Made by a program: the position numbers and the translations under genes. 35,502 nt of DNA from Dehalococcoidia bacterium. GTDB taxonomy: Bacteria; Chloroflexota; Dehalococcoidia; Dehalococcoidales; JAUVZA01. The stretch spans positions 1-35,502 of the forward strand of contig JAUVZA010000007.1 of assembly GCA_030602805.1 (NCBI GenBank), written 5' to 3'. Below the pieces are notes generated by a model. That model was not told where the DNA came from, made no database searches, and worked only from the letters and a program-made list of their open reading frames with translations. Below are positions 594-21,986 of the stretch, piece after piece (position 1 is the first letter of the stretch; each line of letters begins with the position of its first letter).

Positions 594-616
594 AACCCTA
601 TCCCCTTTATCCCCTT
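594..616 (+). repeat. C-rich repeat, possible left end copy
   Basis: AACCCTATCCCC followed by TTTATCCCCTT closely matches the outer part of the repeat at 31771 (AACCCCATCCCCC then TTTATCCCCCTT), each C-run being one shorter. An inverted relative ends at 24877. No hairpin half follows here, so it is either a degenerate copy or a chance C-rich match. Confidence 0.45.
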
Positions 617-800
617 GGCGAACTGATAATCCGAGCAGTGAAATACCATTCGCCAGTGCGATAGATATTCAATCTTACAATAAATTAAAGCGAAAGAAAA
701 ATGGCCGACTATCTCATCGATCAGATAAGTAACAGGTTTTTAAATATATTTATCGCAGAGGCATTTGCCTTTTCGAGATCAGAACGGCATATATACAATT

Positions 801-846
801 GACTGTAGAGTAACGGAATTTCAGGAGTTCGAGTCCCCTTAGCTGG
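801..846 (+). other. tmRNA/tRNA 3'-end-like remnant
   Basis: GACTGTAGAG, then GGAATTTC at 814-821, then a T-loop-like TTCGAGT flanked by GGAG and CCCC, resembles the 3' end of tmRNA (TGTAG..GGAATTTC..T-arm) more than a protein gene. The T-stem has an A-C mismatch, there is no CCA end and no 5' partner, so it is not a functional RNA. The tail overlaps an almost perfect inverted repeat, GTCCCCTTAGCT (833-844) and AGCTGAGGGGAC (847-858). Possibly an attachment-site scar; uncertain. Confidence 0.35.
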
Positions 847-899
847 AGCTGAGGGGACGGAACAAAGAACTTTCCAGTTAAAATTCAGTTTAATATTAT

Positions 900-946
900 G
901 ACTTTTAATCAGGGTGTCACAGGTTCGAGACCTGTACGGCCTACCA
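900..946 (+). pseudogene. tRNA-Lys(UUU) 3' fragment
   Basis: The stretch reads as the 3' half of a tRNA: anticodon loop CTTTTAA (902-908 region, anticodon TTT), anticodon 3' stem TCAGG, variable loop GTGTC, a perfect T-arm ACAGG-TTCGAGA-CCTGT (919-935), acceptor strand ACGGCCT and ACCA (943-946). The expected D-arm and 5' acceptor strand are absent upstream. Such 3' fragments are typical of integration into tRNA genes, where the far attachment site retains only the 3' end plus the original terminator, which is present here at 959-979. The intact partner is not in the window. Confidence 0.65.
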
Positions 947-958
947 AGGCTAGAAGAC

Positions 959-979
959 CTTCCCTGTCGGGGAGTTTTT
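959..979 (+). terminator. Rho-independent terminator after tRNA fragment
   Basis: Stem CTTCCC / GGGGAG with a TGTC loop is followed directly by TTTTT. It begins 12 bases after the tRNA-Lys fragment, as expected for the original tRNA terminator. Confidence 0.6.
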
Positions 980-984
980 GAAAG

Positions 985-1034
985 AATCAGAGTGTCAAGA
1001 CACTAGGTCAACCGACACCCTGATTTTACTGTTT
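985..1034 (+). terminator. Stem-loop repeating tRNA-fragment sequence
   Basis: AATCAGAGTGTC (985-996) pairs, with one mismatch, with GACACCCTGATT (1014-1025), followed by TTTTACTGTTTTT. The right arm on the minus strand reads AATCAGGGTGTC, identical to 12 bases of the tRNA-Lys fragment (907-918). It may act as a second terminator or be a rearranged tRNA piece. Confidence 0.4.
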
Positions 1035-1259
1035 TTATGTATAAATTTCAAGATTTAATGTTGAGTTAATTTTTAATGCATTTTCTTCAGTTGGCTTTGT
1101 CAAGGTAGATCTTTCTAAAATGCGTCAAAATAAGTACACATAAATATGGATTAACAAATGGAGTTGCTTCGCATCCGGCGAAATTAGAATTAGCGATGTG
1201 CTTATGAAAAGATCACTTCACTTTTATTCACTACTCACATTTCATAGCTGTAAGAGTTA

Positions 1260-1281
1260 GCGTATAATCCATGTTATACGC
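1260..1281. repeat. Perfect 8-bp inverted repeat
   Basis: GCGTATAA and TTATACGC flank a 6-base spacer. No adjacent gene explains it. The rest of 1035-1340 shows no gene or other recognisable signal. Confidence 0.4.
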
Positions 1282-1344
1282 AGAGCCTCGCAAGTTGTGT
1301 TATTGAACCATATGTCATGCAAGGCGGGTATTAAATTCTATCTC

Positions 1345-1375
1345 GCTTGGTCACACCAACTCGGCGTGACCAAGC
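1345..1375. repeat. Perfect 10-bp inverted repeat
   Basis: GCTTGGTCAC (1345-1354) and GTGACCAAGC (1366-1375) form a hairpin with an 11-base loop. It stands just beyond the terminator of the surface-protein gene and could back up termination or be a protein-binding site. Confidence 0.45.
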
Positions 1376-1382
1376 AGTTTCA

Positions 1383-1420
1383 CACAAAAGAAGGCCGAGG
1401 CTCTCGTTAGCCCCGGCCTT
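1383..1420 (-). terminator. Terminator of the surface-protein gene
   Basis: Read on the minus strand, AAGGCCGGGGCT (1420-1409) pairs with AGCCTCGGCCTT (1402-1391), one mismatch, and is followed by CTTTTGTG. It lies 39 bases beyond the stop of the minus-strand Ig-like gene. Confidence 0.7.
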
Positions 1421-1458
1421 ACTTATCACCCATGGGGGCTGCCTTACTCAGCTTCCGT

Positions 1459-4374
1459 TTACCCCTTGTGGATAACGATGTTGCCACCCGCAATGCTAGT
1501 GGTGGGATCCGTGCCATCAGCGGCATCCATCTGGTTGTCATAGACTATGGTGTCGGTGTCCCTGTCCCAGATCTTGATGCGGAACTTGTCGACATCGGTG
1601 CTGCTAAGTGTTAGCTTTGCGTCAATGGCGGTGAGCATGAACCCGTAGTTGCCTTCACCATTGATAGTGCCAGTGCCCTTGTACATGGCACGCGCACCGG
1701 CAACCACCAGCCACTGATAGGTGTCGGAGTGAAATTTCAGGTCAGCTACCTGGAACTGGAACTCCGTCTGACCAGTCGGGGTAGTAGCTCCCTTCTTGTA
1801 CTTGGAGACGAAGCCGAAGTTGGCTCGCCCGGTGAGTGTCGGCTCAGCCACGCACGCCCCCTCCGGAGAGTCTATCCAGCCGCCGCCGGTGACAAAGCCG
1901 CCCTCAGGGTCGTAGACAGCGCCGAGCACAGTCGCCGCCGTGGAAGCCTGATGCAGGTCATCGCCAGCGAAGTCGGCGGTAATCTCAAAGACACCAGCAT
2001 CGGGGGGTGCCGGTACCTCCAGGCTAGCCACCCCGTTTGTGTCTGTGAATGCTGAAACGTCTAGGCCGTCAACCTGGAAAGTAATTTCGGCATCTGAAAT
2101 GGGTTGCCCGTCCTCATCCACCAGTAATGCTGCCAAAGTCGCAACACCATTCACCTGAACCAGGGTATCACCGGTATAGGTGAGGGTGGTGGGCGTGTAG
2201 ACGGTGAGGGACGCAGTCGCCGTGGAACCCTGATGCTGAGCATCGCCAGCGAATTCCGCGGTAACATTATAGACGCCAACAGTATCGATTGTCACCTCAC
2301 AGCTAGCCACTCCGTCTGTGTCTGTGACTGCTGAAGCGTCTAGGCCGTCAACCTGGAAAGAAATCGTCGCGCCCGAAATCGGCTGACCCTCACCATCCTC
2401 CAACATTGCCGACAAGGTCGCCGGGGTGTTCACCTGAACCGAGGTATCGCCCGTATAGGTGAGAGTGGTGGCGGTAGTGACCTCCGTCCGGGTGACAGTC
2501 AATGTCGCAGTGACCGAATGTGGGGTCGGGTCGACGTCCGTGGCGACAATGGTTATGGTGTTCACTCCGACATCCAGGCTGACCGGATGGCTAAATGAAA
2601 CTTCATTGTCCGGACCGCCAGTGGGGGTTAAAGTCACCGGCTCGCCGTTTATTGTTATCGAGGCTATGCCCTCAACATCGGTGGCGGTGCCCTCGACGAA
2701 AACGCTGTCGTCAGTAGTCTCGGCTCCGTCAATTGGGCTGGTTACCTGTATCGTCGGGCGCCCTAGTCCGCCTATCACCATCGTATCACCCTCATCCACG
2801 GTAACAGTGAAGGTGCCAAATTCCGGTACGGAACCATCCTCGACAGTGGCGAAGGCCTCTATGGTCCATGTTCCCGGGAACAGGGTGCCGATGGCTTGCC
2901 CCTCGGTCGTTACTAAGTGAGAGCCCCTAGCATAGGCGGTGGGGTATGTGAGCCCTTCCTTCGTAGCTTGGTAATAGGGCAAACTGAGCTCGCCCCCGCC
3001 CTCAACGCCCTCAACGTAGTAGTACAGCCTGACCGTAGCCGTGCCGAATGTCGCATCGACGTCCGACAGTGTCTCACCGGAGGCTACGGTGTACGGATCA
3101 AGGAAATATCCCGACTGATTGATATAGGACCACAGATAGGGATCCGGGTCAGCGGGGTAATCGAAGCGAAGATACAAATAATTGTACCGCCAGGAATCCC
3201 CGGGGGAGGCGACAAACATGTACTCCCCGGTGTCGGGATGGATCCGGACTTGCATGTACCCATTGGGCGCTGAATAGGCCTGGATGTATGAGTACTGCCA
3301 GATGTCGGTGCTGGCACCGGTGAGGCTTAAAGTCCCGGTAATAAAGCCGGGGTCGATGATGAAGTCAAAGTCCTCTAAATGCTGCCCCGCGGTAAGCGTT
3401 ACTGGCGTCCTGGGAGGATTAAGGAAACCATATAGGCCGCTCAGGTCGCCCGTCTCGCCCGTCTCGCCCGTCAGATGATAGTAGAAATAAGGGTGCACAT
3501 ACCAGGTGTCGGCGTCGACATTCAGGGTATACGCGCCGGTAGCTATGTCGGCTATCTCGGTATTGGCGTACCTGGTGGGATTAGGCGCGTACCCACGTAC
3601 CAAAGCATCGTATACGTCTGTTGCTGGTCCCAGCAGGGTGGCGTTTCCGGAGATGGTGGCTGCGGTCACGTCAATCGAGATATTCTTGGTTAGGGTTCCT
3701 CCCGCAGCAAGCGGACCAACGGTTTCGTTGGGGAAGTAATACTGTATGCCGTTTACGGTGACCCAGCCATAGAAGTAATAGTCAAGCTCCGGTGCCACCA
3801 GCAGCGTGTAACCCCTCCCCGGCTGCCCCGGTACAGTTAGGAGAGAAGCTGTGGTTCGGTTTTGGAAAGACATGCCGGGGAATTCGGGTGGCCAAATATA
3901 GGCGTATATGTTGAAACCCTGTATTGTGTTGCCACCATCGGTGGTGGTTGATATGGTCCCCGAGATGAAGGCCGGGTCCACAGACAGGTTTTGTGTAACC
4001 GTACCTCCTATCGGGACATTCACCGTCCCGTGCACCGGAAATATCACCCGGGTATAGTCTGTGGCGACGACCTGTGCATCGGCTATTACATAATAGTCGC
4101 GGTCGCCCTCCACAGTCAGGGTGTAGTCGATGCTGGAGGCTCCTCCGGGAACACTGACGCTTACATACGCCGAAAACACCCCGTCTGTGTCCATGGCTCT
4201 GACGGTTACCTGGGTAATATCATAGCCGTCAACAGTTACTGAGCCGGTCAAATCACCCGGATGCAGGATGACACCGCCGTTAGCCAGAGCTGGCGCTGGC
4301 ATTCCTGCTATAGACACCAGCAACACCATTGATAAGACAAGCCCCAGTATTTTGCTCCTTCTACCTGGTTTCAT
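1459..4374 (-). CDS. Secreted multi-domain Ig-like surface protein
   Basis: A 971-residue exported protein. An N-terminal signal peptide (KPGRRSK, a hydrophobic core, then APALA near residue 31) is followed by about 500 residues of beta-rich carboxypeptidase-regulatory-like repeats with aromatic-rich strands, a glucodextranase-B-like Ig domain (ITSPIDG-type start near residue 545), two tandem Big_1-type Ig repeats that share the strings LTYTGDT and FQVDGLD, and a conserved C-terminal domain beginning VTGGGWIDSPEGA with KFRIKIWDRDTD. That last domain I associate with secreted Chloroflexota proteins. No membrane anchor, LPXTG or S-layer domain is visible, so attachment is unclear. The ATG is preceded by a strong AGAAAGGAG. 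Its base composition is GC-richer than the accessory genes to the right. Likely adhesion or cell-envelope role, unproven. Confidence 0.85.
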   Translation of the reverse strand: MKPGRRSKILGLVLSMVLLVSIAGMPAPALANGGVILHPGDLTGSVTVDGYDITQVTVRAMDTDGVFSAYVSVSVPGGASSIDYTLTVEGDRDYYVIADAQVVATDYTRVIFPVHGTVNVPIGGTVTQNLSVDPAFISGTISTTTDGGNTIQGFNIYAYIWPPEFPGMSFQNRTTASLLTVPGQPGRGYTLLVAPELDYYFYGWVTVNGIQYYFPNETVGPLAAGGTLTKNISIDVTAATISGNATLLGPATDVYDALVRGYAPNPTRYANTEIADIATGAYTLNVDADTWYVHPYFYYHLTGETGETGDLSGLYGFLNPPRTPVTLTAGQHLEDFDFIIDPGFITGTLSLTGASTDIWQYSYIQAYSAPNGYMQVRIHPDTGEYMFVASPGDSWRYNYLYLRFDYPADPDPYLWSYINQSGYFLDPYTVASGETLSDVDATFGTATVRLYYYVEGVEGGGELSLPYYQATKEGLTYPTAYARGSHLVTTEGQAIGTLFPGTWTIEAFATVEDGSVPEFGTFTVTVDEGDTMVIGGLGRPTIQVTSPIDGAETTDDSVFVEGTATDVEGIASITINGEPVTLTPTGGPDNEVSFSHPVSLDVGVNTITIVATDVDPTPHSVTATLTVTRTEVTTATTLTYTGDTSVQVNTPATLSAMLEDGEGQPISGATISFQVDGLDASAVTDTDGVASCEVTIDTVGVYNVTAEFAGDAQHQGSTATASLTVYTPTTLTYTGDTLVQVNGVATLAALLVDEDGQPISDAEITFQVDGLDVSAFTDTNGVASLEVPAPPDAGVFEITADFAGDDLHQASTAATVLGAVYDPEGGFVTGGGWIDSPEGACVAEPTLTGRANFGFVSKYKKGATTPTGQTEFQFQVADLKFHSDTYQWLVVAGARAMYKGTGTINGEGNYGFMLTAIDAKLTLSSTDVDKFRIKIWDRDTDTIVYDNQMDAADGTDPTTSIAGGNIVIHKG
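2090..2480 (-). repeat. Tandem Big_1-type Ig repeat within surface gene
   Basis: Two neighbouring coding units of roughly 280-290 bases encode near-identical segments (LTYTGDTSVQVN versus LTYTGDTLVQVN; FQVDGLDASAVTDTDGVAS versus FQVDGLDVSAFTDTNGVAS). The similarity extends to DNA, so unit number may vary by slippage or recombination. Confidence 0.6.
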
Positions 4375-4414
4375 TGCAAATCTCCTTTCTAATGGATTCT
4401 AGCTTTCAAAACAT

Positions 4415-4443
4415 AATCTAAGTCTATTTGACCTTTGTCTCAA
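4415..4443 (-). promoter_or_regulatory. Putative promoter of the surface-protein gene
   Basis: On the minus strand TTGAGA (4443-4438) and TAGATT (4420-4415) are separated by 17 bases, 41 bases upstream of the start codon. The match to a sigma-70 promoter is fair. Confidence 0.4.
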
Positions 4444-4555
4444 TGCCGTATAACTGACCTCCTTTCTTTTTAAGATTTCTTTATCGCCCCTCGACCTGGA
4501 GCAGACTAATGCTTTGTCTACTTTTCTTCAGAAACCACTCCCACTTTCGTAAAAC

Positions 4556-4623
4556 AAAAACCGACCTTTTGGGTCGGTTTCACTATTGGCTTCTCACTAC
4601 TTGAGTGGCTGCCACAAGTAGTG
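4556..4623 (-). ncRNA. Double hairpin ending in a terminator; possible small RNA 3' end
   Basis: Read on the minus strand, a perfect 9-bp stem (CACTACTTG 4623-4615 with CAAGTAGTG 4603-4595, 11-base loop) is followed after 14 bases by AAACCGACC/GGTCGGTTT (4580-4558) and a TTTTTGTTTT tract. That is a complete intrinsic terminator, yet no minus-strand gene lies upstream of it before 5645. It may end a small RNA or an untranslated leader. Confidence 0.4.
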
Positions 4624-5188
4624 GTTTGCTACTGCTATTACCATGATGCCGGTCAAAATGCTTGCTCATCTCTTGCCCTTACTGAAAACCTTTATTCCAG
4701 CGGCCTACAATTGTGACCACAATCTTCCCATATCCCTGTAAAATAGTCAACTTAGCTGAGTTTCCCAAAATTGGCTATTGCGGTGCTGCGAACTGCAGAA
4801 GTTGCTCGTGATGCCAAGAACTTTACTTTTCTTTATCGACCTCCTTCGCTAGGAAGCCCGCCTCTAAACTAGCCTGATTAGCAGGGTTGTCAAAGTATGT
4901 GTCGAATCTGCTTGGGACCTTGAGATTGAACGAACCGTCAACTGGTTAGCCCGCGCCCCGTCCGAATCCCAGCGTATGAGTAGTGTTACACGCATATGAT
5001 ACCCTGACTTAGGTTCAGGGTCTCGTGTGCCAGATTAGCTTAAATAACGTATATCATCTTACTCAAATTGACAGACGGTTATGTTATGCTAGATTCGAGT
5101 CCTAATGAATATTTATAGACATAAATTTGCAGCCCTTTTCTGTAACAGTTATTACTAGCTATAGCGAGGCTGCGGGATAATACTGTGA
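4624..5188. other. Gene-free stretch
   Basis: I see no convincing coding frame on either strand. The only clear structure is a 7-bp hairpin ACCCTGA/TCAGGGT at 5001-5021. Confidence 0.5.
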
Positions 5189-5450
5189 AACACTGAAAAA
5201 TAACAACTCTGCAACACCGTGGAACAACCCTGTAACAAAGTGAAACAACCCTGAAACAACTCCGTAACATCGCATAACAACTCCGTAACACCGTTATAAC
5301 ACTCAATAACACTGTTATAACAGCGAAACAGTTAGCTTCAATAACAAGAAACATAACAAATGTTGTAACAACGAAATAGAAGCTATTTTACTGTTATAAC
5401 AGTGTTGTTACGTATTCCTGTTACAGGTTGTTGTACTGCTCGCTGTTACC
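5189..5450 (+). repeat. Helically phased AACA array with inverted TGTT flank
   Basis: The triplet AAC, nearly always as AACA in contexts such as GTAACA or GAAACA, begins at 5202, 5213, 5223, 5234, 5244, 5255, 5266, 5276, 5287, 5298, 5308 and 5319: twelve copies with an average spacing of 10.6 bp, one helical turn. Further copies occur at 5189, 5327, 5343, 5355 and 5367. From 5361 the complementary TGTT takes over (5392, 5403, 5406, 5419, 5429, 5444). Embedded palindromes include ACTGTTATAACAGT near 5390-5403 and CCTGTTACAGG near 5417-5427. Such phasing puts all motifs on one DNA face, as in iterons, type II partition centromeres or curved DNA. No matching binding protein is obvious nearby. 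Confidence 0.75.
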
Positions 5451-5452
5451 AG

Positions 5453-5526
5453 GCCTAACTGTTCGTTAGGCTTGAATTAGGCTTCAGGAAAAATAACGTA
5501 TCTTATTTTTCGATTTATCGAAAGTA
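5453..5526. repeat. Cluster of three short inverted repeats
   Basis: GCCTAAC/GTTAGGC (5453-5471), GAAAAATAA/TTATTTTTC (5488-5511) and TTCGA/TCGAA (about 5509-5524) follow the phased array and precede the DUF1648 gene by about 120 bases. They could be operators or terminators; no T-tract strongly favours the latter. Confidence 0.45.
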
Positions 5527-5644
5527 ACAAAAAGATGAAAAGTGCAATGGCATACTTTCTGGCTTATTGTGCACCCATCCAATTCATCTTTTATTGCATT
5601 GGGAGTAGAGATTCGGGCATACTGTAGCTGAAAGTCAGGTAACT

Positions 5645-6187
5645 ATGTGGCAGAAGCTAAGCAAATGCTACCCACCCCAGGTTGAGCTTATTTCCCTAAT
5701 ACTTCTAGCATTTGCTTTCTATATAGTCTTATCTAACTATGCTATACTCCCTGATACCATACCGACTCATTTCGATGCTCGAGGTATTCCTGATGATTGG
5801 AGCAGTAAGAATACAATTTTTCTTTTCCCTAGCCTAAATGCTTTTATATATTTAGGCTGTACTTTCCTGAATATCTGGTTTGCTATCGTTGAGGATCCAA
5901 GGCGGCTGATAAGCCTTCCCCAAAAGAGGTTAGCAAGGTTAACCGAGGAACAGACCGAAAAGCTACGCATCTTTCTAAACCGTTGTCTTTTCCTGCTAAA
6001 AATACTCATCCAAGGCCTGACAGTCTATGGTGTCTATATTACGATTGAGATAGCTTTGGCCAAGGCAACTGGCCTCGGAACTCCATTCCTCCTATTCATG
6101 GGAGCAATAATAGCTCTTGCTAGCTTTATGATATGGCAGAGTTTTCGCATTACTAGTACCCACGGGTCAGATGTAAAACTTAGTTAG
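5645..6187 (+). CDS. DUF1648-domain membrane protein
   Basis: A 180-residue integral membrane protein. A first hydrophobic helix near residues 15-33 is followed by the DUF1648 signature LPDTIPTHFDARGIPDDW, then further membrane segments near 57-80, 108-132 and 143-162. DUF1648 is found in SdpI-type immunity proteins and in many uncharacterised membrane proteins, so immunity or signalling roles are possible but not shown. The ATG has only a weak purine stretch (CAGGTA) upstream. The RND exporter follows 132 bases later on the same strand. The gap 6188-6319 holds no other recognisable feature. Confidence 0.75.
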   Translation: MWQKLSKCYPPQVELISLILLAFAFYIVLSNYAILPDTIPTHFDARGIPDDWSSKNTIFLFPSLNAFIYLGCTFLNIWFAIVEDPRRLISLPQKRLARLTEEQTEKLRIFLNRCLFLLKILIQGLTVYGVYITIEIALAKATGLGTPFLLFMGAIIALASFMIWQSFRITSTHGSDVKLS

Positions 6188-6319
6188 CACCACCTTACAA
6201 AGGTAATTTATCACTAGCTGGATACGGACTGCACAGTATGACGGATTGTTCAACACTTATACTACCTACCGATTCATCACTATTTGAGGTATTGACGCTC
6301 AACAGGCAAAGGTTTAATA

Positions 6320-9142
6320 TTGGTGACAAGAGTAATGCGAAGAGCTAAGAATGAAAGAGACGGAACACCTTTACCTTTCTTCACCAAGATAGGTGGCTTT
6401 CTCGAACAGTACTCAGGTAGAGCCATACTAATAGCGGCGGCTCTCACTCTCCTACTAATCATCCCCCTCTTAATGATGGGAAGCGATGAGCAAGCATCAG
6501 AGGACCCAACAGGAGAAGTCTTCGATCTGAGGGATGACATCAACGAGCGTTTCGCCCCAAGTGTTCATGGTGCATACTTCGTCGTTGAATCCCAAACCGG
6601 TGACATCCTCACCCAAGCCTCTCTCTGGGAATTGTATCAGAATGAGCAACAACTGGGGGAGGATGACCAGAGAGGAACACTGGCACCAGAGAACCTGCCC
6701 ACGCAGTCTTACCTGTACGAGGCGTTTAATATCGGTGCGAACCAGCCGTTCTTCGGTGTGTATAGCCTTGCTGATGCGGTACAGGATGTACTGACGAGCG
6801 ACCCACGCTTCAGCACTACACTAGAGACTGCTACCGACGAGCAAGTCAAGTTAGCGTTGCACCAACTCTTCGCCAATCCAAGTACAAGTGGGCTGCAAGA
6901 TGACCTTTCAATCCAAGCTGAGAGTGAGAAACGTATTGTCGGCGGGACGGAGATCGACTACTGGACCTCCCCAGCTCTGATGTTCGGCGTTTTAGCCGAT
7001 AACGAGAAGTTAGGTGGTGGTACTCTTGAGATCGGGGTTGGTGGTGGTGAGACAGTGCAAAATAAGGAGGAGTTCAGTCGTAACGTCCAACGGGTACTAC
7101 GGGGTGATGAAGAAACATTCCGCCTCTGGGGTATTGCGATTGACGTTAATCTGGAAGCGGGTGAGGAAGGGCAGATAGCTGGCTATTTTATCATGGCCAC
7201 CGTCATCGCTGTAATATTGATTGCCGGGATTAGCCTGCGGTCCTACTGGGCTACAGCTTTGACTGGTGCGGGTCTGGGGTGCCTGATGATTTGGCTCAAC
7301 GGCATCTCCAACCTAGTGGGTCTCAAGGGTGGGCTGGTTATTGACATGATCGTTCCCATCGCCATGATATCACTAGGCGTCGACTTTGGTCTGCATGCCA
7401 TGCGGCGTTACCGAGAGGAAAGGCATCGCGGCTACACCCCGAGAATGGCATTGCGAGCGGGCTTCGCCGGTGTGCTGGGTGCGCTTGTACTGGCGATGGC
7501 AAGCGACAGTATTGCCTTCCTATCCAATACATCATCCGGGATAGAGGCAGTCATCCACTTCGGCATCGCGGCAGCGATAGCCGTAATCTCATCCTTTATC
7601 ATCCTCGGTGTGGTGCTCCCGTTGGCCATGACGCACATAGACAGATTACAGCGACATCATCTGACCTCACATTCGAAGCGTAAATCCTTTATGACAGTCC
7701 TCAATAGTGTTGGTGTGGCGGTTGGAACTGGCACTGGTGTCATCTTTCTAGTGGCGGTCAGCGAGGGACTTGGTGTTGCAATCCTACTCGCGGTGATTGT
7801 TGGATACCTATTAGTGCCCCTATTGATCATGTATCGCCGACGGTCCCGTCAACCACCAGCACCGACCGCAACTCAGCTAGAAGCAAATACACTAGCCCGT
7901 GGAGCAGCAGACAACTGGTTCGTTAATCTGGTTGCCAGGATTGCACATTACCGCATCTTAGTCTTACTTATCACCGTCGGGATAACCACCGTAGCAATTC
8001 TGTTAGCCATCAGGCTGGAGGCAACTTTTGATGTTAAGGACTTCTTTAGCAGCAATTCAGATTTCGTGGTAAGCCTGGATAAGCTGGATGAGCATGTTGG
8101 GGAAACGAGTGGCGAACCAGGTACCGTCTATATCAAGGGGGATCTAACCGATCCCCGGGCACTAGCATCCATTAACCAGTTCATCACCGATTCCGAGATG
8201 CAGATAGAGTCACGAACGATCGTTGACATACTGGAGCGTGTTGTAGTTAGTGAGTACGCGGTAACCCGCGTCGCTACGGTCACGGGGACGGAGATCACCG
8301 ATAGTGATGGTGACGGCTTACCAGATTCCCAAGCACAAGTTGAAGCTGCCTACGCCTATATGCTAACTGAAGGTGTGCACCTGGATGAGAATACGCTAGT
8401 CTACACCCCGGGTCAGATACGCGAGGTGCTTTTTCATGATCCTAGAAGTGACCAAGAAGACGTAACCATCCTGACTATCGGGATCCCAGGTACACGCGAG
8501 CAGCAAAATGTAGTCAGGGCACGCGATATACTTACCAATAACCTCAAAGTCATACGAGAGAGCCCAGCGGTCACCTATGTGGGACTCACTGGCTCGCCGT
8601 TCACTCGGTTGGCTCAACTAGATGCTAGCACCAAGACGCTGCAAAGATCCTTGCCGATAGCGGCAGTGGCATCATTGATGCTCCTGCTTATCGTGATGCG
8701 CTCTTTCCGGTATGCAGTGGTTACTATCATCCCGATTGGGCTGGTCGTGGCATGGCTCTACGGGCTCATGTATATGATTGGTTTCCCACTAAATTACGTG
8801 ACTGCCACTATTGGCGCTGTGTCGCTTGGCGTGGGAATCGACTACTCCATCCATGTCACAGAGCGTTTTCGGGAGGAGATGCACAGAGCACCAAACAAGA
8901 TGCAGGCGCTCCGACAAGCGGCTAACGGAACGGGTGTGGCCTTGTTAGCGTCCGCTATATCTAGCATCGTGGGCTTTGCTATTATGGGATTCGCACCGAT
9001 GCCTATGTTCTCAACTTATGGAATACTGACAGCCGTTATGATCTTCCTGGCCATGTTGGCGTCCTTAGTAGTGCTACCCTCGCTCTTACTAGTGGTGACA
9101 CGCGAGAAGACAGCGAAGAAAACTCAAGGCAAGTCCCGATAA
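6320..9142 (+). CDS. RND-superfamily exporter with two MMPL domains
   Basis: About 940 residues with the duplicated RND plan: one transmembrane helix (residues 33-53), a large external domain, a five-helix bundle, then the same again. Each half carries the MMPL/sterol-sensing helix signature, SLGVDFGLHAMRRYREER in the first and SLGVGIDYSIHVTERFREE in the second. It is closest in plan to HAE3/MMPL hydrophobe exporters driven by ion gradients and probably moves lipids or hydrophobic compounds; the substrate is unknown. An insert in the second external domain reads DSDGDGLPDS, like a calcium-binding thrombospondin-type loop. The start is uncertain: TTG 6320, GTG 6323 (both after AAAGG) or ATG 6335. 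No membrane-fusion partner is present. Confidence 0.85.
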   Translation: MVTRVMRRAKNERDGTPLPFFTKIGGFLEQYSGRAILIAAALTLLLIIPLLMMGSDEQASEDPTGEVFDLRDDINERFAPSVHGAYFVVESQTGDILTQASLWELYQNEQQLGEDDQRGTLAPENLPTQSYLYEAFNIGANQPFFGVYSLADAVQDVLTSDPRFSTTLETATDEQVKLALHQLFANPSTSGLQDDLSIQAESEKRIVGGTEIDYWTSPALMFGVLADNEKLGGGTLEIGVGGGETVQNKEEFSRNVQRVLRGDEETFRLWGIAIDVNLEAGEEGQIAGYFIMATVIAVILIAGISLRSYWATALTGAGLGCLMIWLNGISNLVGLKGGLVIDMIVPIAMISLGVDFGLHAMRRYREERHRGYTPRMALRAGFAGVLGALVLAMASDSIAFLSNTSSGIEAVIHFGIAAAIAVISSFIILGVVLPLAMTHIDRLQRHHLTSHSKRKSFMTVLNSVGVAVGTGTGVIFLVAVSEGLGVAILLAVIVGYLLVPLLIMYRRRSRQPPAPTATQLEANTLARGAADNWFVNLVARIAHYRILVLLITVGITTVAILLAIRLEATFDVKDFFSSNSDFVVSLDKLDEHVGETSGEPGTVYIKGDLTDPRALASINQFITDSEMQIESRTIVDILERVVVSEYAVTRVATVTGTEITDSDGDGLPDSQAQVEAAYAYMLTEGVHLDENTLVYTPGQIREVLFHDPRSDQEDVTILTIGIPGTREQQNVVRARDILTNNLKVIRESPAVTYVGLTGSPFTRLAQLDASTKTLQRSLPIAAVASLMLLLIVMRSFRYAVVTIIPIGLVVAWLYGLMYMIGFPLNYVTATIGAVSLGVGIDYSIHVTERFREEMHRAPNKMQALRQAANGTGVALLASAISSIVGFAIMGFAPMPMFSTYGILTAVMIFLAMLASLVVLPSLLLVVTREKTAKKTQGKSR

Positions 9143-9197
9143 GTAAATATCTAGTTGATTTAGATAAGCCCTGTGTTTGGCAGTCAATGTAAGAAAT

Positions 9198-9281
9198 GAA
9201 CGTTTTTATACTGCTTAAGAGGTCATCTGAAAGACTATAGACATAGTCTTTTAACGGCCTCTCAACTACTATAAAACGTTC
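9198..9281. repeat. 84-bp imperfect inverted repeat with palindrome core 1
   Basis: The outer arms GAACGTTTT..AAGAGG (9198-9222) and CCTCTC..AAAACGTTC (9258-9281) are largely complementary. The centre is the 22-bp palindrome AAAGACTAT-AGAC-ATAGTCTTT at 9230-9251, the first of four related palindromes. It may work as a strong hairpin after the exporter gene or as an element end. The following stretch to 9510 shows no gene. Confidence 0.6.
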
Positions 9282-9510
9282 CTTTATTCATAAGCAAGGT
9301 TGAACATATCGCTAATTTGTTTAATGAGCGAAATGAGTTAAGGGCACTCTTTGTTTAAACAACACTTAAATGTAGAATCACCCGCTCTGCCACACAAGAA
9401 TCATAAACCGGGTCACGGCTATCTGCAGTCTCTCCTTCTTCTCAAGGTGTTGACCTATGTTGCTAACGTCCGTGGTTTTTTCAGCCAACCATGCACGAGG
9501 TGATACCATC

Positions 9511-9539
9511 TTGACATTTATGTAAAAAGCGTATATACT
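9511..9539 (+). promoter_or_regulatory. Sigma-70 promoter of the RHH-methyltransferase operon
   Basis: TTGACA at 9511-9516 and TATACT at 9534-9539 are separated by exactly 17 bases. Immediately downstream GTTTA/TAAAC half-sites (9540-9555) could be the operator for the RHH protein encoded next. Confidence 0.7.
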
Positions 9540-9609
9540 GTTTAAAAGATATAAACGTTATTAATTCTAGAAACTATCGGGAGTCTCTGACTTAAAGGCG
9601 GAATGAATC

Positions 9610-9834
9610 GTGGGAAGACCACCAACTAGCAAGATAAAGGAGCGAAAGAAGGTCAACTTCTATTTAAAAAAAGAGGTTGACACGCTTGTAGAGCAGCGGC
9701 ATATAGAAGTCCAGAGCCGCCTTGGCCGCAGAGTAGATAAGGCGCTTTTCCAAGAGGCATTAGTCAAAGCTGGTCTTGATCGCACTGATGAGGTGATAGA
9801 GCTCTTGAGACAAGATGTTGAATCAAGCGGATGA
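9610..9834 (+). CDS. Small ribbon-helix-helix-like DNA-binding protein
   Basis: A 74-residue basic protein. A charged N-terminus (RPPTSKIKERKK) leads into VNFYLKKEVDTLVEQ, a short beta-strand followed by helix, then a second helix with an arginine cluster, the layout of ribbon-helix-helix regulators. It starts at GTG 9610 after AAAGGCGG; the earlier ATG 9603 is in another frame and stops quickly. It is the first gene after a good promoter and 25 bases before the methyltransferase start, so autoregulation of the operon, as by controller proteins of R-M systems, is a reasonable inference. Confidence 0.6.
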   Translation: MGRPPTSKIKERKKVNFYLKKEVDTLVEQRHIEVQSRLGRRVDKALFQEALVKAGLDRTDEVIELLRQDVESSG

Positions 9835-9859
9835 AGAGGGGACTTTGCAGGAGGTCAGT

Positions 9860-10777
9860 ATGAACAATATTTTTGACAATTCCTTAGAACCATACTATAC
9901 CACAGACTACGGTACGGCGTATCTTGGTGATGCGCTAGAGTTAATAAAGCAACTCCCTGATGCATCCATCAACCTGATAATGACCTCTCCCCCCTTTGCT
10001 TTAACAACGAAGAAGGCTTATGGTAATGCAGATTCAGGCAAGTATATAGAGTGGTTTAAACCTTTTGCCCATGAATTCTGGCGTGTTTTGAAAGAAGACG
10101 GTAGTTTAGTGATACACCTAGGCGGAAGTTGGGACAAGGGACGCCCCACTCGTTCTCTCTACCACTTTGAATTACTCTTAGACCTTTGTCGTAACAGTCA
10201 CGAGGCAAGATTCTACCTAGCCCAAGATTTCTATTGGTTCAATTACGCTAAATTGCCTCTTCCCGCGGAATGGGTAACTGTCCAGAGAATCCGAGCAAAG
10301 GATGCTGTAGATCCAATTTGGTGGCTTTCAAAATCTCCATTCCCTAAAGCTGATAACCGCCAGGTTTTAAATCCTTACAGCGAAAAGACAGATAAGCTTC
10401 TGAAGTTAAAACAGGGACAACGTGGTCCTTCCGGTCATAATAGCTCTTTAAAGTTCAAGAGAAAGCTTGACGGAGCTATCCCTCCGAATCTTCTCTACAT
10501 AGCAAATAGTGAATCGAACAGTCAATATTTATGCTCTTGTCGTAAAGTTGGAATGCGACCTCATCCTGCGCGATACCCGGTGGAATTACCTAAATTCTTT
10601 ATCGAGTTCTTAACAGATCAGGATGGCATCGTTTTAGACCCGTTTGGAGGCAGTAATGCCACCGGTGAGGCTGCTGAGAAAACAAAGAGGCAGTGGATTT
10701 GTTTTGAATTACGAGAAGAGTATCTGAAAGGCTCTAAATATAGATTTCGGTTGCCTGAAGAGTCTAAAGATAACTAG
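9860..10777 (+). CDS. DNA N4-cytosine-type methyltransferase (beta class)
   Basis: A 305-residue S-adenosylmethionine-dependent DNA methyltransferase. The catalytic motif TSPPF is at residues 42-46 and the AdoMet-binding motif DPFGGSNATGEAA at 260-272; catalytic-before-AdoMet order is the beta class, and SPPF is typical of PvuII-like N4-cytosine enzymes, though some N6-adenine enzymes share it. The start at 9860 is chosen because AGGAGGT lies 5 bases upstream; an in-frame ATG at 9815 has no such site and overlaps the preceding gene. Nearly the same 20-base leader is found at the internal start of the HD gene (16931). No recognisable endonuclease adjoins; the next gene cluster is a GHKL ATPase. 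Likely host-protection methylase. Confidence 0.9.
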   Translation: MNNIFDNSLEPYYTTDYGTAYLGDALELIKQLPDASINLIMTSPPFALTTKKAYGNADSGKYIEWFKPFAHEFWRVLKEDGSLVIHLGGSWDKGRPTRSLYHFELLLDLCRNSHEARFYLAQDFYWFNYAKLPLPAEWVTVQRIRAKDAVDPIWWLSKSPFPKADNRQVLNPYSEKTDKLLKLKQGQRGPSGHNSSLKFKRKLDGAIPPNLLYIANSESNSQYLCSCRKVGMRPHPARYPVELPKFFIEFLTDQDGIVLDPFGGSNATGEAAEKTKRQWICFELREEYLKGSKYRFRLPEESKDN

Positions 10778-10894
10778 CTATTTCTACCAGTGAATGTAAT
10801 CCTCCTAGGTCCTCTTCTCCGTAGTAGCTACAAGAGTCCTCCTTTTTAACTGCAATGTTCAAATATTTACTCCTATTCTTACTCCTAAACTACG

Positions 10895-10957
10895 ACCTGT
10901 TATTAACAGGTTATGAAGAATGCTTGACAAAATAACAATAATATGATAACCTGTTAT
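10895..10957 (+). promoter_or_regulatory. Promoter with palindromic operator for the GHKL operon
   Basis: A perfect palindrome ACCTGTTA-T-TAACAGGT (10895-10911) and a second copy of its half-site TAACCTGTTAT (10947-10957) flank a -35-like TTGACA at 10924-10929; the -10 is weak (TAACCT at 10947, 17 bases on, inside the half-site). The repressor would cover both promoter elements. This suggests control separate from the methyltransferase. Confidence 0.55.
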
Positions 10958-11001
10958 AAATATAACTAGTACTAATATAACGAAATCGGAGGTGATTGTG
11001 A

Positions 11002-11226
11002 ATGACAAAATCTATAGAGGATAGGAGAGAGGCTTTTCAAAGATTAGCGACTAGAAGGACGAATGAAGTGTTGAAGCGACTGCGAGTTCTGGGCCACTGC
11101 GCTAATCCCCAGCTTTATGAATACACGGAAGGAGAGGCCAAAAAAATATTCCAAGCTATAGACAAAGAGTTGAAGGTTGTAAAGATAAAATTCCAGAACT
11201 CGGGTAGGACAGAATTCCGACTATAG
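11002..11226 (+). CDS. Small protein of unknown function ahead of GHKL ATPase
   Basis: 74 residues, charged, mostly helical in appearance, with no motif I recognise (KSIEDRREAFQRLATRRTNEVLKRLRVLG at the start exceeds no known signature; key features are many Arg/Lys and a single Cys). A clear GGAGGTGAT precedes the ATG by about six bases. It ends 17 bases before the ATPase start and so is almost certainly co-transcribed and co-translated with it, perhaps as a partner or regulator. Confidence 0.65.
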   Translation: MTKSIEDRREAFQRLATRRTNEVLKRLRVLGHCANPQLYEYTEGEAKKIFQAIDKELKVVKIKFQNSGRTEFRL

Positions 11227-11243
11227 GAAGGAGGTTGTGTGCG

Positions 11244-13949
11244 ATGTTTCAATTATTTCCGGCTGAAGTACATAGACTTTTCAATATGCGTAAACCAAAG
11301 GAGGTTGAGTCATTTATCCAATCTCTTTCACAACGGAATCCTGAAGGATGGGATTGGCGTAATTTGGGGGACTTAGACAATAATTCTGGAAATGTCAGGT
11401 TCTCAGAGGAACCGGGACTGCCGGTTGTAGAGCGCATCATAAACATGCAAGAGGCGTTACTCGAACTTGCCTACTATGAAGCGGGCAAACCGAAGATTTT
11501 TCCCTCTACCCCACGAAAAGCGGTTGAAGAATGGTTCAAAATCCCCGGGGGTTCTGTAAATGCGAGTGAGGACAAATCCTTCCTAAAAGAATTAGCTTCA
11601 AAACTTAGGGTTGACGTTTATGACTCAGGCATTGAGAAAAGACCATCGATTGCTTTTCATGATAAGGGGATTGGTCAGCATCCTGATGATTTACCCACCA
11701 CTATTCTCAATTTAACTGGTGGCAACAAGCTTGATAAACTGTATCTATCCGGGGCTTTTGGGCATGGGGGGTCTTCAGCTTATGCTTGGTGCAGATATAG
11801 CATTATCGTATCTCGCCGAAGGCTACAACATACCGGGGGGAAACCAGATTTAGTAGGCTGGACAATCGTCCGAGAATACGATTCTCAATCCATTAAGCTT
11901 CCTATCTACCAATATCTCGTTACTAAAGACCGAAAAGTGCCGTCTTTTGCTCCCTCTTGCCTAAAGGACACGGCCTTTGATTTTGGCACCTATATCATAC
12001 ATGTAGCCTATAACCTAGGGCGCTTGAGCAGTCCGTGGGCTTTCGTAGGTTATCGCTATTTTGACAACCTTTTATTTGACCCCTTACTCCCCTACATAAT
12101 TAGCGACGATCGGTATCATGATAAACCTGAATACAGAGCCAAAGATATGACGATGTACGGAGGACGAAGGCACCTTTCTGAGGTGGTAATAGACTATGGC
12201 AAGGATGTTTATTATAAGCCCTATACATTTAACCTTGATGGAAAAGGCAGTTTAACAATCAGATTCTGGGTTTTTAAAAGACAGCGCTCGCGGAGAGGAG
12301 AAAAAGAGGGAGCTCCCAAGATAACCTCTTACCTTGAAACTGAAAGGTCACCACGCACGGTGATAATAACCTTAAATGGACAAAGGCATGGCTATCTAGA
12401 TAAACCATTTGTAAACGGAGTAGCTGGCTCTACTCCTTTAGCTGACCGTCTGCTTATGCAGGTTGACTGTGATGACTTATCTTTGAGTCTAAAAAAGGAA
12501 TTAATAACCTCCACTCGCATGAGATTGAGGACAGGCGAGCATCTTGACTTTATTAAGGAGTGTATCAGGAAGGCTTTGGAGGATGACGAACTCCGGCAAA
12601 TTAAGGGAGAACTCTGGCAACGCGAATTTGCCGAGGCAGGCGAAGGAGATGAACAAGCTCGGAGTATTCTAAACAATCTTGTCAAGGCTGGCAGAAAGAT
12701 AGAGAAAGGTCCCGGTCCGCAGAAAGGTAAGAGCAAAGGGCAAGGTGGAAAAGGCTCCAAAAGTTACAAAGCAAAAGACCCTCCGTCTTTCTTTAAATTC
12801 GCTGAAGAGAAGGAGACACTCCAAGTCGAGCCAGGAGAGTATCGTTTCCTCGATATACGTACGGATGGGCCAGATAATATGTTCTCTCGTAAAAACCGGA
12901 GATCCAGAGACAATTTAGAGGTTGTTCCTAATGACCAAAGTATACTCGTGTCAAGAGGTGAACTTCATAACGGCCGCCTAAGTGTGATAGTCAAGGCTAG
13001 CGAAGCAGCAAAAATAGATTCGTACTACACTTTAAGAGCCCAACTAGAAATTGAGGGTGGGGTATATCTCCTCCCGCTGACCGAGCGCAAGTGCAAGGTG
13101 GTTGCTCCCCCACCTCCTTATGTCGGGAAAGACCCCCCTACTGAACTTCAAATTGTAACAAGAGGAGGCGTTCTTAAACTTAAACAAGGACGTATCACCC
13201 GAGTTTCGGTCAGAACTAATTGCTCTGATGATTTACTAGCTCGCGCATACCAACCCGGTAAGATTCATGAAAGTTGCTCAATTAAAGGAACTAGGTTGGA
13301 AGCTGTCGGAGGACCTACTAAAGGAGAAATAGAACTTCGCTATGAGGTTCCTCAAAATATCCCAATTGGAACCCGAGGGGATTTAGAGGTAATTCTTATC
13401 TTAGGAGATGGGACCAAACTAAATGACTCAAAACCTTGCATAATAGTTGAGGCACCACTAACTGAGCATAAAGAAGGGCAAAAACAGGTTGTAGAATCAA
13501 ACTTCAAATTTATAGAGGTATGGAAAAAGCTACCCTCTGACACTTCTGGCAATTTCAATACTTGGGACCAATTAGAACCAATATGGGATGAGACGAAGGT
13601 TGGAGATTATCAGACCAATAAGCAGAATGGTGAAAAGGAGTTCGTCTTCAGAATAAACATGGATTTCTCAGATTATGCCAAAGAAAGGGGGCGGTTTTAT
13701 AGGAGATTATCAAGCCCAACAATGAATAGACTCAAAGACAAATACAAAGCCTACGTTTCATATTATCTTTGGCAGCTTGAGCGTTCTTTACTAGATAAAA
13801 AAGATTCGCTCAAAACATCTGAGGAAGAAGGGCAAAATCAGTTTGATGAAGAGCAAATTGAGGAAGAGAAGCGCAGAGTTGCGAAAACCATTCTCGCAGC
13901 AATACGCCCCGAAAAGGAGCTTGTCGAAATCTTGCAGAGTCCAGAATGA
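11244..13949 (+). CDS. GHKL (Bergerat-fold) ATPase, MutL/MORC-like candidate defence protein
   Basis: 901 residues with a full set of Bergerat ATP-binding motifs: N-box VERIINMQEA (residues 62-71, with E63 and N67), G1 box HDKGIG (D140-x-G-x-G) and G2 loop GAFGHGG (170-176). A long mid-region follows, then a Lys/Gly-rich linker (GPQKGKSKGQGGKGSK, near 490-507), beta-rich segments and a charged helical C-terminus. The ATP site places it with Hsp90, gyrase, MutL and MORC; Iyer and colleagues described MutL/MORC-like GHKL proteins encoded beside DNA methyltransferases, which fits its position after one. The middle and C-terminal parts I cannot assign. ATG 11244 is chosen because AAGGAGG lies 9 bases upstream; the upstream TTG 11235 abuts that site. 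Possibly an ATP-driven DNA-clamping effector of a restriction-like system; unproven. Confidence 0.75.
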   Translation: MFQLFPAEVHRLFNMRKPKEVESFIQSLSQRNPEGWDWRNLGDLDNNSGNVRFSEEPGLPVVERIINMQEALLELAYYEAGKPKIFPSTPRKAVEEWFKIPGGSVNASEDKSFLKELASKLRVDVYDSGIEKRPSIAFHDKGIGQHPDDLPTTILNLTGGNKLDKLYLSGAFGHGGSSAYAWCRYSIIVSRRRLQHTGGKPDLVGWTIVREYDSQSIKLPIYQYLVTKDRKVPSFAPSCLKDTAFDFGTYIIHVAYNLGRLSSPWAFVGYRYFDNLLFDPLLPYIISDDRYHDKPEYRAKDMTMYGGRRHLSEVVIDYGKDVYYKPYTFNLDGKGSLTIRFWVFKRQRSRRGEKEGAPKITSYLETERSPRTVIITLNGQRHGYLDKPFVNGVAGSTPLADRLLMQVDCDDLSLSLKKELITSTRMRLRTGEHLDFIKECIRKALEDDELRQIKGELWQREFAEAGEGDEQARSILNNLVKAGRKIEKGPGPQKGKSKGQGGKGSKSYKAKDPPSFFKFAEEKETLQVEPGEYRFLDIRTDGPDNMFSRKNRRSRDNLEVVPNDQSILVSRGELHNGRLSVIVKASEAAKIDSYYTLRAQLEIEGGVYLLPLTERKCKVVAPPPPYVGKDPPTELQIVTRGGVLKLKQGRITRVSVRTNCSDDLLARAYQPGKIHESCSIKGTRLEAVGGPTKGEIELRYEVPQNIPIGTRGDLEVILILGDGTKLNDSKPCIIVEAPLTEHKEGQKQVVESNFKFIEVWKKLPSDTSGNFNTWDQLEPIWDETKVGDYQTNKQNGEKEFVFRINMDFSDYAKERGRFYRRLSSPTMNRLKDKYKAYVSYYLWQLERSLLDKKDSLKTSEEEGQNQFDEEQIEEEKRRVAKTILAAIRPEKELVEILQSPE

Positions 13950-14434
13950 AGCTATCCGTCTGTAATACCTTTTCTCCGGCCTCAAGCTAGGACTTTTACG
14001 ACGGACAGTTCGTCATTTAGTGATATAAGACGGCAGTTGCGCTGGGAATCTGTATATAGTAACAATTATCTGAGCATTAGGGCCGAAGGCTTGTAAGCAG
14101 GAGTTAATTGATGACCCAATAAGCCAATTGTGGTAGTCATATTCCGGCAAGCTTAGCCATAGGCTATCTTGAGGTAAAGGCAAATATTGCCTTAAAGACC
14201 ATGTCTGCGGTTCTATCTATGGAACCCATCGGCCTACCATATACAGGACTCGAACCATACAACCCCTACTACCAGCAGTAGACTATATCTATAGTCTACG
14301 GTTTACGGAGTCGGCGCATAAGCCCAAAGTCTATATTAGTGTTTACTTAAATACTTCTTCAAAGGTAACAATATACTAGATTGTTGGATACAAGTACTAC
14401 TGGACGGACATCGGGATGTGTGTCACAGAGTAAC
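13950..14434. other. Convergent intergenic stretch with short palindromes and tRNA-like motifs
   Basis: No gene is seen. It holds an AAGGCAA/TTGCCTT hairpin near 14174-14192, a copy of CGGCCTACCA at 14230-14239 (also the last 10 bases of the tRNA-Lys fragment at 937-946), a reverse-strand T-arm-like GGTTCGAGTCC (14244-14254 on the complement), and palindrome copy 2. Confidence 0.45.
14278..14299. repeat. Shared 22-bp palindrome, copy 2
   Basis: GTAGACTAT-ATCT-ATAGTCTAC. It lies between the converging GHKL ATPase and ImmA-like genes. Arms and 4-base centre spacing are the same as in copies 1, 3 and 4. Confidence 0.8.
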
Positions 14435-15343
14435 TTAGTTTCCATCCCGCTTTGTTTGTAAGCCAATCTTAGGCCAAACGATAGATAACACTGACTTAGG
14501 TGTACTGTTGATTCGGTTATTTGAATCTGTCTCTTTACTGTGATAACCCTTGGCTTCGATAATGAAGTCGCCTTGGAGAGCACCCAGTTTTAACCTAGCT
14601 TCTTCTCTTATAAGCCCACTTCTCAGAGAAGCACGCATGAACGCGGTATCTTCTGATGCAGGTTTATCAGGCCAAACAAAGTAGTGTTTGCCATCCTTTA
14701 ACGGTACACTCCAGTCCACTCGTAGCTTGATGTCTTTTTCATCTTTAAGCTTCGATTTCCAGCTCCACCTGATAATAACTGGCCCATCTAATATGCCTAG
14801 TTCTACAACCCTTTCAGTGACAGCACGCATACTGACATTGTACAACGACCTAAGCTGAAATAATGTCTCACACCAAATGCCCGTATTATTAAAGATTGTG
14901 AGCGCATCTTCTCTAAACGTTTTCTCGGGCATAAGAAGCTCGGCAGCAAATATGTCACAGAGCTTCTCCTCAGCATCACTACCTATATCTCTCTGCAAAC
15001 GGATTGGTGTAGCAGCTTCAATGTCGTAGAAAAAAGTATGTCCAATCTCATGGGCTAAAGAAAAAACGTCTCGTGAACCCGCCGCTCGTTTTACAGCGAT
15101 TATGAATCCTCCCTTTACTGGTGTAAGCTGACTATTTGAAGCGCTATCAGAGTATTTTATTGAAGTGACCTTACGTAGGGGTGCTATCTTCTTTGGATTA
15201 AATGGAGCGATAACCATATTAGCAGCCAGGAGGAGTTTATTAGCTTCAACCTTTACTGCTGCCTCAGGGTCAGTTTCCCCCGCTCTTCTTAAAAAAGAGA
15301 GAATAGCCGGGCTTTTCCAGTAATCAAGCCGTTTCTTTGGCAT
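14435..15343 (-). CDS. ImmA/IrrE-type zinc metallopeptidase
   Basis: 302 residues. HEIGH at residues 98-102 is the zincin HEXXH site, and the helix EEKLCDIFAAELLMP near 125-139 supplies the third ligand and the family-typical AAELLMP. ImmA/IrrE peptidases cleave repressors or regulators, commonly in mobile elements and stress responses. The C-terminal 140 residues (from about WSWKSKLK) form an extra domain I do not recognise. The ATG at 15343 is chosen over a TTG at 15370; it lies within the last codons of the HD gene, a 20-base overlap implying coupled translation. Substrate could be a regulator in this island, such as the XRE protein, but that is inference. Confidence 0.85.
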   Translation of the reverse strand: MPKKRLDYWKSPAILSFLRRAGETDPEAAVKVEANKLLLAANMVIAPFNPKKIAPLRKVTSIKYSDSASNSQLTPVKGGFIIAVKRAAGSRDVFSLAHEIGHTFFYDIEAATPIRLQRDIGSDAEEKLCDIFAAELLMPEKTFREDALTIFNNTGIWCETLFQLRSLYNVSMRAVTERVVELGILDGPVIIRWSWKSKLKDEKDIKLRVDWSVPLKDGKHYFVWPDKPASEDTAFMRASLRSGLIREEARLKLGALQGDFIIEAKGYHSKETDSNNRINSTPKSVLSIVWPKIGLQTKRDGN

Positions 15344-17249: not shown

Positions 17250-17315
17250 GAAAGCCTCCCGACAACCGTATACATTAGTTCAATACATACAGTTTCTACC
17301 ATTATCCTTATGTCT

Positions 17316-17343
17316 ATTATAACATACCCCCTAGACTAACCAA
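17316..17343 (-). promoter_or_regulatory. Putative promoter of the HD-ImmA operon
   Basis: Minus-strand TATAAT (17321-17316) with TTGGTT (17343-17338) 16 bases upstream, about 67 bases before ATG 17249. Confidence 0.5.
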
Positions 17344-17431
17344 CACAGACTGAAAACGATTGCATTTTCATTACTAGCTAATTCTCATGTTTATAGTTTA
17401 ACGTGAGCTACATCCCTTATATAGACGGTCC

Positions 17432-17679
17432 TCATTTGGATACCCTTCCCTTTATTATTCTTGCATATGCTGGATTCAACTCTATCCGTATCGTATTCCA
17501 CCCCATCTCCAACGCCACCTTTATCGTCGTGCCAGAACCAACAAAAGGGTCAAGCACTACCCCGCCGGGTGGGTAACTCGACAGAACCGGTCTTATACCA
17601 AGAGCCTCAGGATAAACGGCAAAATGAGCTCCTGGAAACAGTTTTTGTCGTATTTCCCAGAAATCTCCTAATGAATCAA
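17432..17679 (-). pseudogene. DNA methyltransferase C-terminal remnant
   Basis: A minus-strand frame ending in TGA at 17434-17432 encodes about 82 residues with the motif DPFVGSGTTIKVALEMG preceded by FPGAHFAVYPEAL and followed by IRIELNPAYARII: the C-terminal AdoMet-binding part of a beta-class DNA methyltransferase (GSGTT form). It has no start codon; in-frame TAG and TGA stops lie just upstream (about 17680 and 17720), although KNLGD before the TAG hints at an older extension. The N-terminal catalytic SPP region is missing. It differs from the intact methyltransferase at 9860 (DPFGGSNATG), so it is a relic of another R-M or orphan methylase in this island. Confidence 0.8.
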
Positions 17680-17950
17680 CCTAAACCATATCGCCTAGAT
17701 TCTTACAGATTTTTAAAACTCACAGAGTAATTAGTCTATAACCAACTGGCTAATTTAACCCGGACACTATTTATGTATTGAGTATTTCGCTTCATACACT
17801 CTATCTCGAGGGGGGGTGATAATTTGGCTATTTCTTGAAATTTCACCTTATGGCTTTTTGTTGGACAATGAAGCTGAAAATCAAGCTAGGTTCTCAGATA
17901 TAACAAAAGCCCTTTTTGTAGCGGGGTTTTCTAAAAAGAAATTGTGTAAA

Positions 17951-17970
17951 TAGACTATATCCATAGTCTA
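17951..17970. repeat. Shared palindrome, copy 3
   Basis: TAGACTAT-ATCC-ATAGTCTA, flanked by A and C so that the outermost pair of the 22-bp form is lost. It lies between the HD/ImmA module with its methyltransferase relic and the phosphatase-HD module. Confidence 0.8.
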
Positions 17971-18151
17971 CTGGCCTCATAATTACACTCATCATCGAAC
18001 CACCCCCCAGAGGCTCTCAAAGGTTAGGGACAACACAATGCTCTCATTACATCGACAATGCCAAGACGGAAAAATAATGAGATGGTGTAATGGCTTGACG
18101 AAAAAAGGATAAAGTGATGACGGAAAGTTGATATACCCTACACCCTGGTTT

Positions 18152-18185
18152 TATCCGGACTGTCCGGATACTTTTTGTGTATAAT
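18152..18185 (+). promoter_or_regulatory. Palindrome plus -10-like box
   Basis: TATCCGGA-CTG-TCCGGATA (18152-18170) is followed by CTTTTT and then TATAAT at 18180-18185. It is either an intrinsic terminator or an operator just upstream of a promoter for the small reading frames at 18359-18657. The -35 is not clear. Confidence 0.4.
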
Positions 18186-18358
18186 ACGAAGGTGGATAAA
18201 ATCTTCAACCACTTTTGAGCCTTGTTATTGTCATTGTCATCGCTTTTTCATCCCCTGTTCGTCCGCCTTGCAGTGGACATGAACAACCCTCGAGTACCGA
18301 CTATAAGCGCGTTGATACTGCGGAATTCGAAAAAGACACTTATTAACTAGTCCGCTAC

Positions 18359-19813: not shown

Positions 19814-19883
19814 TCCTCAAGTTCCTCCTCAGATAGCGTCGAAACTAGTTTTGTGTCTTATTATATTACTTCCTGCAAGTATC

Positions 19884-19918: not shown

Positions 19919-19948
19919 AATACTTATTTCCCGCTAAAATTCAACTAA

Positions 19949-21952: not shown

Positions 21953-21986
21953 GGAAATGGGCACCTCGCGATTATTTTATCTGACT

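Follow-up and report, generated by a model that had tools for sequence, protein, structure and literature searches.

A helically phased AACA array in a genomic island of a Dehalococcoidia bacterium as a candidate origin-type site

Twelve AACA motifs lie one helical turn apart within a genomic island of a Dehalococcoidia bacterium (contig JAUVZA010000007.1 of assembly GCA_030602805.1). This contig of 35,502 nucleotides, one of the 104 in the 1.51-Mb genome, was analysed whole and is called the window below. The array is real and probably functional as a protein-binding array; its likeliest nature is that of an origin-type iteron array whose own initiator was lost or never present. In its full form, the reading that this stretch is an iteron-type array of multiple protein-binding sites, and the origin-type site of a mobile element without an initiator gene, is one that we hold tentatively, at somewhat short of an even chance. 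Feature coordinates are collected in Table 1.

Table 1. Positions in the window of the array, its associated repeats and its surroundings
Feature	Position	Strand	Remark
Genomic island	600..24520		separates ispD from the cupin/ORF118-radA genes; about 24 kb, with approximate edges
Outlying AACA	5189..5192	+	out of step, 13 bp before the array
AACA array, 12 motifs	5202..5322	+	mean spacing 10.63 bp; flanks tRt-AACA-aC; partly a 21-bp (two-turn) repeat
Dyad GTTATAAC	5293..5300		right half is AACA number 10
Long imperfect inverted repeat	5298..5416	+	34-nt arms, 79% complementary; array end and the TGTT copies that follow
Dyad TGTTATAACA	5313..5322		21 bp after the previous dyad; right half is AACA number 12
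Third dyad ACTGTTATAACAGT	5390..5403		perfect palindrome
TGTT-rich stretch	5392..5463	-	helically unphased
DUF1648 membrane-protein gene	5645..6187	+	first gene downstream of the array
Large serine recombinase gene	22799..24523	+	abuts the right island edge

The AACA array and its helical phase

The twelve copies start at positions 5202, 5213, 5223, 5234, 5244, 5255, 5266, 5276, 5287, 5298, 5308 and 5319, with gaps of 11, 10, 11, 10, 11, 11, 10, 11, 11, 10 and 11 bp in that order. A spacing of 10.63 bp fits best, with every copy within 0.48 bp of it, and of the 330 possible orders of these gaps only 7 hold the phase as well. The original observation of twelve copies about 10.6 bp apart, all on one face of the helix, is borne out by these values. 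Measured against dinucleotide shuffles, autocorrelation of the array reached z = 8.0 at 21 bp and z = 6.0 at 32 bp (shuffle maximum about 4.6), and the phase score at a period of 10.6 was 43.1 against a best of 18.4 among 300 shuffles, which makes the array the top stretch of the window. Chains of four copies of any 4-mer at 10/11 bp were found nowhere else in the window, save for shifted readings of the array itself (TAAC, ACAA), nor in 123 kb of related loci, and the array's 10/11-bp triplets occur just once elsewhere in the genome.

The AACA core is conserved at all 48 of its 48 positions, while the other 11 columns of the unit match their consensus in 53% of cells. In 100,000 trials, simulated neutral decay of a tandem repeat to the observed divergence of 0.63–0.70 never produced such a run. 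Because all other columns of the unit vary, the core and its phase look to be under selection. As had been proposed from the letters alone, coding does not seem to explain the array: every plus-strand frame through it is interrupted by stops, and we read the 91-aa antisense ORF that overlaps it (5079–5354) as a by-product of the 21-bp, seven-codon tandem repeats that the array contains. The accompanying claim that the motif then switches strand to TGTT holds for the letters, TGTT being frequent at 5392–5463, but not for the phase (p = 0.32).

The array is also predicted to be strongly curved, in a manner that depends on its phase. Under a first dinucleotide wedge model no other 128-bp stretch of the window is as curved, the end-to-end ratio being 0.497 against a median of 0.931, and under a second model, which gives a weaker result, it falls within the most curved 0.2%; re-spacing the units by 3 or 5 bp abolishes the predicted curvature. 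We give this prediction moderate weight. Phased A-tracts of four or more are absent from the array, the units of which have AA or AAA only. An earlier suggestion of curved DNA is thus upheld as far as predicted shape goes, but it says nothing on function, since phasing of any unit gives curvature.

Phased arrays at Lin1244_N loci of phages

A search for five spaced AACA copies, run independently of any gene, showed the pattern to be common in public genomes and viral contigs. Many of the matches in genome contigs, mostly from cyanobacteria and Bacteroidota, were perfect 7-, 14- or 21-bp repeats and were set aside. Among the 45 viral arrays that lie within genes, 26 are in proteins of the Lin1244_N family (PF14297, DUF4373) and others are in Phage_rep_org_N, DUF1376 and DnaB_2 proteins; because 21 bp make seven codons, such an in-gene array is also a peptide repeat. 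The five-copy pattern is missing from every other genome in samples of 392 from the class and 399 from the phylum, the array was not found in the sampled genomes of the same order, and blastn of the array against plasmids and named phages returned no similar DNA. The spacing is therefore not conserved across order, class or phylum, although it recurs in unrelated phages.

A second pattern, AACANTGTTATAACAG, derived from the final part of the window array, retrieved loci with the same dyads at the same spacing. Dyads of GTTATAAC stand in phase and 21 bp apart in the window (5293–5300 and 5314–5321) and likewise in the arrays of loci L418 and L216. Two arrangements occur: in L418, L386 and L421 a Lin1244_N gene is followed by a primase-helicase gene and then a noncoding array, and in L216 and L380 the array lies within the Lin1244_N gene. 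Positions 5286–5323 match L418 at 89.7% over 39 nt, with an E-value that is inflated because the loci had been picked for a 16-mer inside the match.

This circularity was removed by fetching loci through the Lin1244_N protein alone, with single proteins as queries. AACA/TGTT chains of at least four copies were present in 15 of the 49 loci so obtained, several of the 15 being near-identical phages and thus not independent, and the other 34 had no AACA chain by this strict test. The chains lay either about 2.15 kb past the start of the gene, just after the primase-helicase, or 360–395 nt into the gene. The same test found chains in 7 of 118 loci chosen by the 16-mer, several of these 7 being among the loci named above.

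Other Lin1244_N phages carry phased arrays of other motifs, namely GGCT, GCGA/ATGC and GCAA, at the same places as the AACA arrays (L493 5644–5702, L507 3880–3936 and L517 3388–3424). In Enterococcus phage EF62phi a gene annotated as encoding a replication initiation protein holds a GCAA array with GCTATAGC dyads, which resembles the window array in layout. Phased TAACA arrays were also seen shortly upstream of small-terminase or small-terminase-like genes (L181 8010–8077 and L224 229–356); the one in L181 directly follows the primase-helicase gene and may serve as either an origin or a packaging site.

The adjoining initiator and primase-helicase genes suggest that the phage arrays act as origins. 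The window array shares with them AACA at 10/11 bp (twelve copies, such arrays being defined by four or more copies of a short motif), GTTATAAC dyads 21 bp apart and, in one of their two versions, a noncoding position. It differs in copy number, the phage arrays having 4–8 copies, and in its flanks, the first eight window units reading tGtAACAaC against tATAACA in the viral ones. Above all, an initiator gene adjoins the phage arrays, in one version together with a primase-helicase, whereas the window array has neither. No Lin1244_N gene overlaps the array or lies within about 2.2 kb of it, and the window as a whole was found to contain no known initiator gene, Lin1244_N or other, and no primase or helicase gene. 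Because this defining neighbour is absent, the array is not a proven member of the Lin1244_N-origin class.

The host genome does contain two Lin1244_N genes, on contigs C22 and C24 only, one of them adjoining a DnaC-like helicase loader and other phage-like genes, and these indicate that such phage-type elements enter this lineage. Neither has an AACA array beside it, and the phages found here with such arrays are not known to infect the lineage. Plasmid-type iterons, one of three kinds of site suggested at the outset, nonetheless fit best, as the closest matches in both sequence and layout are the phage arrays beside replication initiators, and it is on this closeness that we take the array to be an origin-type site.

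What the sequence shows is the array, its phase, the uneven conservation of its columns, the island and the return of the layout at Lin1244_N loci; binding by a protein, which protein that is, and origin activity, here as in the phages, we infer. In the mechanism that we propose, each AACA would be one protein contact, all copies would face the same side of a naturally bent helix and some would form one half of a TGTT-N-AACA dyad. The protein would most likely assemble cooperatively along the array, wrapping or bending the DNA further, and this assembly would open or mark the adjoining A+T-rich DNA. The putative origin-type site would now reside in a serine-recombinase island with its initiator gene missing.

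The surrounding island

In nearly all relatives examined, where the contig reaches far enough, oadB, radA, ispD and a cupin or ORF118 gene are clustered within roughly 1 kb of each other, whereas ispD and radA are 24 kb apart in the window. Homology to the relatives ends near 570–616 on the left and restarts near 24,510–24,740 on the right. These breaks at both flanks and the split of ispD from radA place the array inside an acquired island, which on such comparisons is a gain of this lineage. The island encodes an Ig-like-domain surface protein, the DUF1648 protein (next to the array, as originally noted), an MMPL transporter, a DNA methyltransferase, an HD/dGTPase-like protein and an ImmA/CapP-like peptidase. 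The island may be composite, G+C content being higher in its left third than in the remainder.

Two further island proteins stand out in scans against Pfam, PHROGs and PADLOC: one of 904 aa (11235–13949) had no match, and one of 533 aa with an HTH and a coiled coil (20363–21964) had weak matches only. Fragments resembling tRNA 3' halves lie at 907–946, 830–850 and 5088–5107. The stretch 920–946 includes a complete T-arm, the acceptor strand and CCA, and the other two resemble T-loops only; ARAGORN found no tRNA at any of them. Their interpretation as attachment duplicates was rejected, 920–946 and 5088–5107 having no second copy in the genome. Phage-gene remnants were likewise rejected, as translated comparison of the island with the viral loci gave methyltransferase-type matches only. 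A strong terminator-like hairpin on the minus strand (4557–4581), 180 bp upstream of the 971-aa surface-protein gene, may terminate an unseen transcript of that strand or be an attenuator.

Alternative readings and significance

The strongest competitor, which we consider unlikely though well worth weighing, is an operator array for a small protein of winged-helix or MerR-like type, able to form head-to-tail polymers (an excisionase or RDF such as Apl, Cox or Xis, or else BldC), that would control island excision or transcription of the DUF1648 and MMPL genes. Proteins of this sort bend DNA and bind to direct repeats spaced by one helix turn, and the array, which has this layout and a single orientation, lies upstream of DUF1648 within an island. 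Serine-integrase directionality factors work differently, however, and the island's integrase is of the serine type. Apl of phage 186 has five and seven operators at 10–11 bp (PMC7498355), fewer than the twelve sites here, and RdfS of ICEMlSym and BldC act likewise on helix-turn-spaced direct repeats (PMC11963761). Unlike the Apl system, the window has no recognised tyrosine integrase, att core or RDF gene, and nothing on the contig matches HTH_17. One relative, G006, does combine a gene for a 61-aa HTH_17-like protein, a phased array and DUF1648. Its array (L046 200–370) is weaker, with CAAT and ACATTCA motifs at a period of 10.8 bp, and lies between the HTH_17-like gene and a membrane-protein gene, adjoining DUF1648. 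The BldC-like partner that this locus suggests was rejected as a general explanation, a phased array being present at 1 of 19 homologues of the G006 protein and at none of the nine HTH_17 genes of the array's own genome. A DUF1648 orthologue in another relative, G012, has no array alongside.

It is improbable that the array is a relic or structural DNA without present function, either a 21-bp minisatellite or a dead origin. The 21-bp tandem repeats, the missing partner gene and the absence of the array from every sampled relative are what such a relic would show. Neutral decay, however, should strike all columns equally, and here the core is perfect while the flanks have drifted, with the phase kept despite varying gaps.

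We give a similarly small chance to the more specific idea that the array is a phage origin deliberately copied into the island but lacking the initiator, either as a phage satellite that would borrow the initiator and replisome of a helper phage or as a decoy that would titrate the initiator of an invading phage and so protect the cell. In lactococci, cloned phage origins confer resistance. The methyltransferase, the HD/dGTPase-like protein and the ImmA/CapP-like peptidase are encoded in the same island. The PLE phage satellites of Vibrio cholerae show that a large-serine-recombinase island can carry such an origin, there within a large noncoding region, but PLE itself supplies the RepA gene (PMC7145576), whereas the window has no recognised initiator and no helper phage is known for it.

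More doubtful still is a partition site, a centromere of type Ib or type II plasmid style for a ribbon-helix-helix protein. Plasmid parC sites, such as those of R1 and pB171, consist of tandem repeats of about 10 bp to which RHH dimers bind along wrapped DNA (PMC5016525), and the window array has this layout. The operon of an NTPase and an RHH or HTH adaptor that adjoins such centromeres was not seen among the window ORFs, the main proteins of which were scanned for families, and there is no ParA, ParM or TubZ gene in the window, in agreement with the original statement that no partition ATPase is seen. The island RHH protein of the original note, of 74 aa (9610–9834), is RHH-like by eye, but it matches no family in Pfam, PHROGs or PADLOC, is encoded 4 kb from the array beside the methyltransferase, and has no phased AACA upstream of its gene. 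The ParR-type suggestion is weakly supported, by the repeat layout.

Finally, it is very improbable that the feature works at the RNA level, as a long imperfect hairpin within a transcript: the inverted repeat folds with z of about −4.8 on either strand, a minus-strand terminator-like hairpin lies at 4557–4581 and the Rfam model WsnRNA46 scores 38.7 bits, but this is far under its gathering score of 65.3, unrelated microRNA models match too and point to a generic hairpin (so that any Rfam identity was rejected), the fold follows directly from AACA facing TGTT, and it leaves the phase of the first eight units unexplained.

Judged by title and abstract, none of the literature that we found naming Lin1244_N or DUF4373 is about replication. 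If the origin-type reading of these arrays is right, the large group of phages with Lin1244_N (DUF4373) proteins follows a general rule and marks its origins by helically phased arrays in which the motif varies by clade and the phase and position stay. Phased arrays would then give a way to locate origins and to read initiator specificity from sequence, and the orphan array of this host island would be a further case, possibly a satellite origin or a natural decoy for initiators.
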